Shown here: positions 7,352 to 47,372 of the stretch, in pieces
Numbering within the stretch: position 1 is the stretch's first letter
Layout of the letters: each line of letters opens with the position of its first letter
Assembly (NCBI GenBank): GCA_027081015.1
Contig: JALWMA010000042.1
Coordinates: 1-57,550, forward strand
From: Campylobacterales bacterium
GTDB taxonomy: Bacteria; Campylobacterota; Campylobacteria; Campylobacterales; Hydrogenimonadaceae
Direction of reading: 5' to 3'
DNA length: 57,550 bases
Notes under the pieces: generated by a model
Told to the model about the DNA's origin: nothing
The model's input: the letters and a program-made list of their open reading frames with translations, nothing else
Databases searched by the model: none
Translations under genes and position numbers: made by a program

Positions 7352-7392
7352 CCGCTTTTATCCAAACAGCTCTATTTACAGGGGTTCATATT

Positions 7393-7482
7393 CATAGAAA
7401 TTCAGGATTTCGAAGCTTCAGAGGGTTGTAGGGCCGCTCACCCGCTACGAAACTGCGGCTTTGCCCGCAGTTTGCGTGACAC
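7393..7482 (+). repeat. Dispersed multi-hairpin intergenic repeat, copy A (5'-truncated or diverged)
   Basis: Shares with copies at 39111-39342 and 47214-47331 the blocks GATTTCGAAGCTTCAG, GGGTTGTAGGGCC and a terminal hairpin; here the latter is AAACTGCGG-CTTTG-CCCGCAGTTT with a near-perfect stem, then TTGCGT. The leading TTTTACGCA palindrome of the other copies has been lost or diverged. Lies between two minus-strand genes. Confidence 0.7.
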
Positions 7483-7485
7483 CGC

Positions 7486-39104: not shown

Positions 39105-39110
39105 CCGATG

Positions 39111-39220
39111 TTACGCAAATTCAGGGCCGAGCCCGCAATTTGGCAGGGGTGAGCTGTCCTACAACCCCCTGAAGCTACGAAATCATAGATTTCGAGAAAA
39201 TTTTACGCATTCTGCGTAAG
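39111..39220 (-). repeat. Dispersed multi-hairpin intergenic repeat, copy B
   Basis: On the minus strand: TTACGCAGAATGCGTAA palindrome, CGAAATC-TAT-GATTTCG hairpin, CAGGGGG...CCCCTG stem, AATTGCGGGC...GCCCTGAATT stem, then TTGCGTAACATC. A 60-base core (39160-39219) is identical to copy C exactly 120 bases on. Confidence 0.9.
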
Positions 39221-39230
39221 CCATTCATGA

Positions 39231-39342
39231 GACGCAAATTCCGAGCAAAGCCCGTAATTTGGCAGGGCCTGGCCGGCCCTACAACCCCCTGAAGCTACGA
39301 AATCATAGATTTCGAGAAAATTTTACGCATTCTGCGTAAAAT
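39231..39342 (-). repeat. Dispersed multi-hairpin intergenic repeat, copy C
   Basis: Same layout as copy B, opened by the full palindrome TTTTACGCA-GAA-TGCGTAAAA with flanking A/T. It abuts the fliO-like stop codon. Together with copy B it fills the gap between convergent dus and fliO, where the hairpins may act as a two-way terminator. Confidence 0.9.
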
Positions 39343-40188
39343 TTAAGGAAGGTTCTCCCTGCTTGCGTTGGCTTTGAAGGCTTCGTAGGCGTCGGGATGG
39401 TTCTCTTTCAGAAAGTGGTCGAGCTGCTTTTTGTTGGCTTCGAAAAGCGATGTGAAACTCTCCGGATCCTCCACCCGCTCATCCGAAAATGTGTCGAGCA
39501 GCAGGTTGCTGCTTCCTACGACCATCAGGTACTGCCTGTCGTTGAACTCAAGAAGTATGAGTCTGTTTTGAGTGTCCAGAGCCTTCTGGTAGCGTATAAC
39601 CGCACCCTCCGGAGCGATCTTCGCTCCACCGATTCCGGGCATGAGCCATCCGCCAAGACCCGACCTTTTTCGTTTTACAAGCCAGAGGACTACGAGCAGA
39701 AGAGCCATTATGCCCAGAACACTCCAGTAGCGCCAGCCCGGAAGGGTCTCTTCCGTTTTCGCTCCGACGAGCGCCCTGCTCTCTTTCTCTGTTTTGGACA
39801 ACATGGCATGGCTTTTCGCAGCTGTAACCGGTACGATCCTGAGGCGGAGGCCGAAACCGTCCACGGTTTTGGAGGCTTCGACCTTTACGCCCTTTTTTGC
39901 AGGCACTATCTTTACGAGTGCCGAGTTTTCGGCCGCTCCGGTTACGGCTATCGACTCCACTATGCTGTTTTGGAGCTCTTTTGCGAAGGGTTTTAGAACA
40001 TGGACATTGGAGAGTCTGATATCGATACTCCCGTCGCCGCCCCTGCTTCTCTTTATCGAACCGTCGAAGGGTGCGTCGAACGAGAGCATCAGGTCTACCC
40101 TGTTCTCCCTTTCGTAGATATTGCGGTTCAAGAGGGTGGCGGCAAACAGCAGGGGAGCCAGGAGGCAGAGTGTTAAAACGGCTCTCAT
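39343..40188 (-). CDS. fliO: FliO-like flagellar export protein with periplasmic N-terminal domain
   Basis: 281 residues. Signal peptide (RAVLTLCLLAPLLFAATL), a periplasmic AMIN-like beta domain (about 20-120; RNIYERENRVDLMLSFDAPFDG split), one membrane helix (about 152-172), and a C-terminal cytoplasmic FliO-type domain (KALDTQNRLILLEFNDRQYLMVVG). FliO helps FliP assembly in the type III export gate. The identity rests on that last domain and on fliN directly upstream. The N-terminal domain is longer than in E. coli FliO. Confidence 0.72.
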   Translation of the reverse strand: MRAVLTLCLLAPLLFAATLLNRNIYERENRVDLMLSFDAPFDGSIKRSRGGDGSIDIRLSNVHVLKPFAKELQNSIVESIAVTGAAENSALVKIVPAKKGVKVEASKTVDGFGLRLRIVPVTAAKSHAMLSKTEKESRALVGAKTEETLPGWRYWSVLGIMALLLVVLWLVKRKRSGLGGWLMPGIGGAKIAPEGAVIRYQKALDTQNRLILLEFNDRQYLMVVGSSNLLLDTFSDERVEDPESFTSLFEANKKQLDHFLKENHPDAYEAFKANASRENLP

Positions 40189-47160: not shown

Positions 47161-47213
47161 CAGGGTTGCGCTTGGATTTCCTATTAACTGTGTCGTACCG
47201 TTTTATGCTACTG

Positions 47214-47331
47214 ATTTTACGCAGAAGGCGTAAAATCATCTCGAAATCTCTGATTTCGAAGCTTCAGGGGGTTGTAGGGCCGCTCACCCCCTGCCGAATT
47301 GCGGGCTTGGCCCGGAATTTGTGTAACATCA
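47214..47331 (+). repeat. Dispersed multi-hairpin intergenic repeat, copy D
   Basis: TTTTACGCAGAAGGCGTAAAATCATC, CGAAATC-TCT-GATTTCG, AGCTTCAGGGGGTTGTAGGG, CACCCCCTG, AATTGCGGGC-TTG-GCCCGGAATT, TTGTGTAACATC: every block of copies B and C in the same order. Sits between two plus-strand genes. Confidence 0.9.
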
Positions 47332-47372
47332 GATATATACCAGATTAACAAAAACTACTCAAAGGTTGGAGA

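Follow-up and report, generated by a model that had tools for sequence, protein, structure and literature searches.

What is the repeat that lies between positions 39105 and 39345 of this 57,550-nucleotide stretch (the whole of which we call the window), and how did it come to be there? The original prediction, made from the letters alone, described a dispersed intergenic repeat of four successive hairpins and offered a REP/MITE-like element, a processing or terminator cassette, or a nucleoid site as possible identities. Here we argue that the repeat is a non-autonomous miniature inverted-repeat transposable element (MITE) of about 120 bp, belonging to a new family, of ordinary kind but wide spread, of the ISAba11 group. 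The explanation as a whole, in which a MITE with ISAba11-group ends is moved in trans and its core has spread across the Campylobacterales, is one that we hold with high confidence.

Copies in the window

The copies and their parts are as follows (H1–H3 are the three hairpins of the core).

39105–39219, + strand: MITE unit 1 (from sequence; covariance model match 39105–39197, 77 bits)
39105–39116, + strand: left end of unit 1, CCGATGTTACGC
39117–39141, + strand: H1 of unit 1
39145–39160, + strand: H2 of unit 1
39161–39177, + strand: invariant linker of unit 1, ACAACCCCCTGAAGCTA
39178–39194, + strand: H3 of unit 1, CGAAATC-ATA-GATTTCG
up to 39219, + strand: palindrome of unit 1, TTTTACGCATTCTGCGTAA
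39220–39235, + strand: array junction GCCATTCATGAGACGC separating units 1 and 2 (from copy alignment)
39236–39345, + strand: MITE unit 2 (from sequence; covariance model match 39224–39317, 90 bits), with H1 at 39236–39260, H2 at 39264–39280, linker at 39281–39297, H3 at 39298–39314 and palindrome up to 39339
47211–47332, − strand: complete single MITE, 122 bp (from sequence, covariance model and relatives' loci)
7392–7485, − strand: decayed MITE copy without the 3' palindrome and end (from sequence, covariance model and orthologue)

Much of the predicted arrangement holds. Every copy is intergenic, unit 1 starting directly after the stop codon of the dus gene (39104), and the tandem units are indeed head to tail exactly 120 bp apart (TACAACCCCC occurs at 39160 and 39280), with an identical 60-base stretch common to both. 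All four of the predicted copies are matched by the covariance model, which found no further copy in the rest of the window, but the one at 7393 (47 bits, against 77–90 for the others) is a decayed remnant without the TTTTACGCA...TGCGTAAAA palindrome; in Hydrogenimonas sp. S141_77 the orthologous copy (L121/L289) has stayed intact and shows the 7-bp duplication TCTTTAA. The blocks said to follow the same order in all copies are shared, but the pair at 39111 is opposite in orientation to the copies at 7393 and 47214, and the order is mirrored. The predicted coordinates missed the true ends, which are CCGATGTTACGC at 39105 and, for the 47-kb copy, CTGAT...ATCAG at 47211–47332. This last copy has both terminal inverted repeats (CTGATTTTACGC...GTAACATCAG) and a decayed 7-bp duplication; in unit 2 the terminal ATCAG has diverged to ATTTA. 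Junctions related to that between units 1 and 2 (CCATCCATGTTACGC) are seen again when copies from the other arrays of the home genome are aligned.

Anatomy of the unit

Read in the orientation of the copy at 39105, the consensus starts with CTGATGTTACGC, followed by H1 (AAATTCCGGGC-NNA-GCCCGCAATTT) and GGC, continues through H2 (AGGGCC-TGGCC-GGCCCT), the linker ACAACCCCCTRAAGCTT and H3 (CGAAATC-NNN-GATTTCG), and closes with AGAYGA and TTTTACGC-NNNN-GCGTAAAATCAG. The terminal inverted repeats, CTGATGTTACGC / GCGTAAAATCAG, are 12–14 bp long, and enclose a core of 95 nt made up of three hairpins and an invariant, single-stranded linker of 17 nt. The element is about 115–145 bp long, with inverted ends (CTGAYSTTACGC...GCGTAASRTCAG) and no coding capacity. 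The successive hairpins are real: one unit folded as single-stranded DNA gives four of them at −24.4 kcal/mol (z −4.7), a value equalled by none of 200 shuffled sequences. The stem that had been read as CAGGGGG...CCCCCTG is one of two alternatives, since most copies pair AGGGCC-TGGCC-GGCCCT, but a minority have AGGGGGTGAGC in H2, which is able to pair with CCCCCT of the linker to form the stem first described.

Variants of this plan occur. One subfamily in the home genome (L033, L034, L039, L041, L045) combines the same core with other ends, namely TGTTAYACGG and the palindrome GGCGTTT...AAACGCC, and its arrays are spaced at 116–117 bp; it may depend on a different end sequence, or may not move at all. 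In some copies of Sulfurimonas type (L106, L126, L151, L091, L074, L084, L225), H1 or H3 contains a nested insert, about 45 bp long (AAGCGAAGCGCTTTTCGCAAAGCGAAAATGTTTCTTTAG), which is itself a hairpin and might be a further small repeat, mobile in its own right. In L068, L089 and L134 the H3 region is partly duplicated inside single elements, which is consistent with slippage at the hairpin.

Distribution among Campylobacterales

The home genome (G000) belongs with Hydrogenimonas, its nearest relative among those compared being G005. A whole-genome search gave 47 BLAST matches, resolving into 66 units on 39 stretches, at about 40 places. The outcome that was to refute the original prediction, namely no copies beyond those of the window and no compensatory changes, was checked for and is not what was found (for the stems, see below). 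With the covariance model, the core was found in 90 of 399 Campylobacterales genomes, representing 22 of 87 genera, and among the matches listed from a pattern scan of all GTDB species it was confined to Campylobacterota. The plasmid and IMG/VR collections that were searched yielded no copy of the MITE, and a search of the literature on MITEs in Epsilonproteobacteria/Campylobacterota or Sulfurimonas found nothing relevant to the repeat.

Evidence for transposition

The prediction had proposed a search for target-site duplications, and these were found. Both ends could be located in 88 copies, of which 21 are flanked by perfect duplications of 7 bp (0.65 expected from permuted flanks), and 40 have flanks matching at six or more of the seven positions (3.4 expected). 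The signal is strongest for a length of exactly 7 bp directly adjoining the ends (z 10.9), and no other length or offset gave a comparable one, except sub-windows of the same 7 bp. The duplicated targets are AT-rich, roughly TTATTAA. Related species supply empty sites, from which insertion can be judged to be clean: the place orthologous to that of the L027 insertion (duplication TTGCTTA) is empty in G001 and G016, and the site of the window's 47-kb copy is empty in G005, G001, G003 and G012. Two whole arrays, L002 (CTATTAT) and L059 (TACATAA), are each bounded by just one perfect duplication, which points to growth of the arrays after insertion, or else to their insertion as a unit.

A likely mover

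How might an element without a transposase gene be moved? At contig ends of a Sulfurimonas genome, the same terminal repeat is present before a start codon and after the end of coding, and a pattern built from it revealed complete or partial insertion sequences (ISs) in six Campylobacterales genomes. One complete IS (L232, in G195) is 1102 bp long, has the ends CTGACCTTACGCAC...GTGCGTAAGGTCAG, and encodes a single transposase of 350 amino acids that scores 329.8 bits against the NCBIfam IS701 model NF049921 (cut-off 250) and also matches Pfam DDE_5; L231 is a 276-bp internal-deletion derivative of an IS of this type, with the duplication TTAATAA. Homologous ISs on plasmids carry annotations such as IS701, transposase or 'group ISAba11'. 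Those of Acinetobacter and Polaromonas have exactly CTGATGTTACGCAG as their ends and are flanked by the 7-bp duplications TTATTTA and TATTTAA, and the others have the ends CTGATGTTACGCAC (Cyanobacterium) and CTCACCTTACGCAC (Piscirickettsia); the duplications are perfect at the Acinetobacter, Polaromonas and Piscirickettsia copies. The published duplication length for ISAba11 is 5 bp (PMC7885321), and this value is also obtained for the same ISs if one further base on each side is assigned to the ends; the two lengths agree only if one end base pair on each side is counted as duplication instead of inverted repeat, as the IS records allow.

The MITE thus shares its outer ends (CTGATGTTACGCA) with the ISAba11 group of the IS701 family (NF049921; Acinetobacter, Polaromonas, Cyanobacterium), and its 7-bp duplication too when this is counted flush with CTGA, but it lacks the transposase gene, and the ISs contain nothing that corresponds to its 95-nt core. 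Because the same ends and the same duplication length bound these autonomous elements (L232, L231 and those of Acinetobacter and Polaromonas), the MITE is probably moved by an ISAba11-type transposase. Such a transposase scored above the NF049921 cut-off in only two of the 399 Campylobacterales genomes, as against 90 with the MITE, so the MITE outlives its mover in most of the genomes sampled. The home genome, a draft of 147 contigs, has no NF049921 match, and its family is therefore probably stranded; a MITE need not share its genome with an autonomous partner, though an active one usually does. The closed genome of a sister species of the same genus (G001) retains a decayed and broken ISAba11-type transposase copy that ends at the same inverted repeat.

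Other candidates were considered. Transposases of the IS4/IS5 (PF01609) and IS1595 (PF12762) types are absent from G000, G001, G007 and G016, and the single full-length PF01609 match, in G005, lacks the MITE ends. Pairs of ends lying 0.3–7 kb apart (in the retrieved loci and in G001, G007 and G061) had ordinary genes alone between them. We also draw attention to unrelated palindromic elements bearing the same ends (CTGATGTTACGC / CTGACCTTACGC), of 269 bp in G007 (L163–L170) and G001 (L175), and of 263 bp in G062 (L212).

The sequence of events that we envisage is that an ISAba11-type DDE transposase, acting in trans, would cut out or copy the MITE and insert it into AT-rich targets (roughly TTATTAA), giving rise to the 7-bp duplication. 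Tandem arrays, with a period of about 120 bp, may then arise, and be homogenized, by recombination or slippage after insertion, while the stems and linker would be kept by selection for transposition or, in the case of the stems, perhaps by template-directed repair.

Stable stems and changeable loops

The prediction had noted paired changes in the last hairpin; the three core stems covary across genera. In an alignment of 110 distinct sequences, itself fitted to the structure, 91.5% of cells pair, double-sided changes are seen in 20 of 23 pairs (10.4 on shuffling), and the covariation score is 0.302, whereas shuffled sequences give 0.105 and slid partners no more than 0.069. For H1, a count based on anchors and made without such fitting agrees with the fitted alignment (0.877 paired, against 0.548). 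This covariation need not mean RNA function, because template switching can restore stems and yield 'compensatory' changes (PMC8794818).

Rates of change could be compared at insertions shared by the home genome (L013, L014, L016, L019, L034, L035) and G005 (L278, L139, L125, L290, L294, L127, L282), a small sample of seven orthologous units at six sites in one species pair. The flanks differ at 73 of 1129 positions (6.5%). Fewer changes are found in the H3 stem (1/98, 1%) and the linker (3/140; together p 0.002 against the flanks), and many more in the 3-nt loop of H3, where 13 of 21 bases differ and all seven units are changed (p 1e-10 against the flanks); in the H2 loop 10 of 35 bases differ. 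Two nearby variable positions, the R site 14 nt upstream of the H3 loop and the Y site 10 nt downstream, were each unchanged in six of the seven units, which argues against long conversion tracts, and among the copies of the home genome the H3 loop shows no linkage with either. A few Sulfurimonas pairs, judged by eye, gave a mixed outcome. Units of the same array mostly have a common H3 loop. A tentative reading, to which we give somewhat less than even weight, is that a process confined to the hairpin loops renews them at about ten times the flank rate, while the stems are held perfect either by that process as well or by selection. Template switching might serve, as might cleavage of the hairpin followed by resynthesis, or conversion tracts shorter than about 25 bp. 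The turnover of the H3 loop is the most surprising of these findings and worth following.

Is the repeat anything other than a transposon?

Could the core be a structured RNA or DNA signal, selected by the host for some cellular function and merely travelling in a transposon? The near-invariance of the linker and stems between genera, and the slow change of the linker and H3 stem relative to the flanks at shared insertions, would fit such a role, but there is no Rfam family at the gathering threshold (0 matches), the sites occupied vary among species of one genus, the copy at 7393 decays freely, and the orientation of neighbouring genes is unbiased (27 sense and 32 antisense among co-directional sites, p 0.60, with 25 convergent and 14 divergent, as judged with a simple ORF caller, by which only one of 99 copies falls within a long ORF). 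We regard a host function as unlikely. The same lack of orientation preference tells against the processing or terminator cassette of the original prediction: although the hairpins are stable, and a terminator scan marked one end hairpin of unit 1, the G+C-rich core stems are not followed by a T tract and there is no promoter-like site, so that an intrinsic terminator or RNA-processing cassette seems very improbable. Because neighbouring genes show no preferred orientation, we favour a selfish element, whose core would aid its own transposition or replication, over a regulatory cassette.

Least credible of all is a REP or REPIN spread by a REP-associated tyrosine transposase (RAYT). An intergenic location, high copy number, hairpins and, on the reverse strand, a stem flanked by GTAG (GTAGGGCCGGCCAGGCCCTGCC) are all reminiscent of such elements, but the search for a RAYT that had been suggested found no match to Y1_Tnp (PF01797) in the home genome, in which controls were detected, and for this reason we do not consider the repeat to be a REP; moreover, it has terminal inverted repeats and 7-bp duplications, the latter unexpected for REP elements. 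Of 'REP/MITE-like', then, only the second half survives, on the strength of the inverted ends, the 7-bp duplications, the empty sites and the ISs with the same ends.

Relation to other small repeats, and significance

A close parallel is MITEAba12, of about 113–120 bp, for which the link with a parent IS likewise rests on shared ends and an equal length of duplication; it differs in its parent (ISAba12), in its 9-bp duplication and in being mostly confined to Acinetobacter, and the parts of its description that we consulted report no covarying multi-hairpin core (PMC6382973). CIR, Correia/NEMIS, ERIC and RUP are also small intergenic repeats with stable stem-loops, and CIR is, like the MITE, conserved between species and built of two arms and a linker; unlike the MITE, most of these repeats terminate in TA and form their stem by pairing one end with the other, and none is described with the ends, the 7-bp duplication or the ACAACCCCCTRAAGCTWCG linker found here (PMC2229807).

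About one in four of the sampled Campylobacterales genomes carries this repeat, of which we found no description in the literature searched and which now has a name and a likely mover. It also emerges that, within this order, ISAba11-type ends are found on several palindromic mini-elements that are unrelated. A caution applies as well, since RNA function is not a necessary conclusion from 'compensatory' changes in a repeat (PMC8794818). The combination of stable stems and changeable loops makes the mutation and repair of DNA hairpins testable through natural copies, and if loop-local turnover is real, the dispersed copies would keep a natural record of how hairpin loops mutate in living bacteria.
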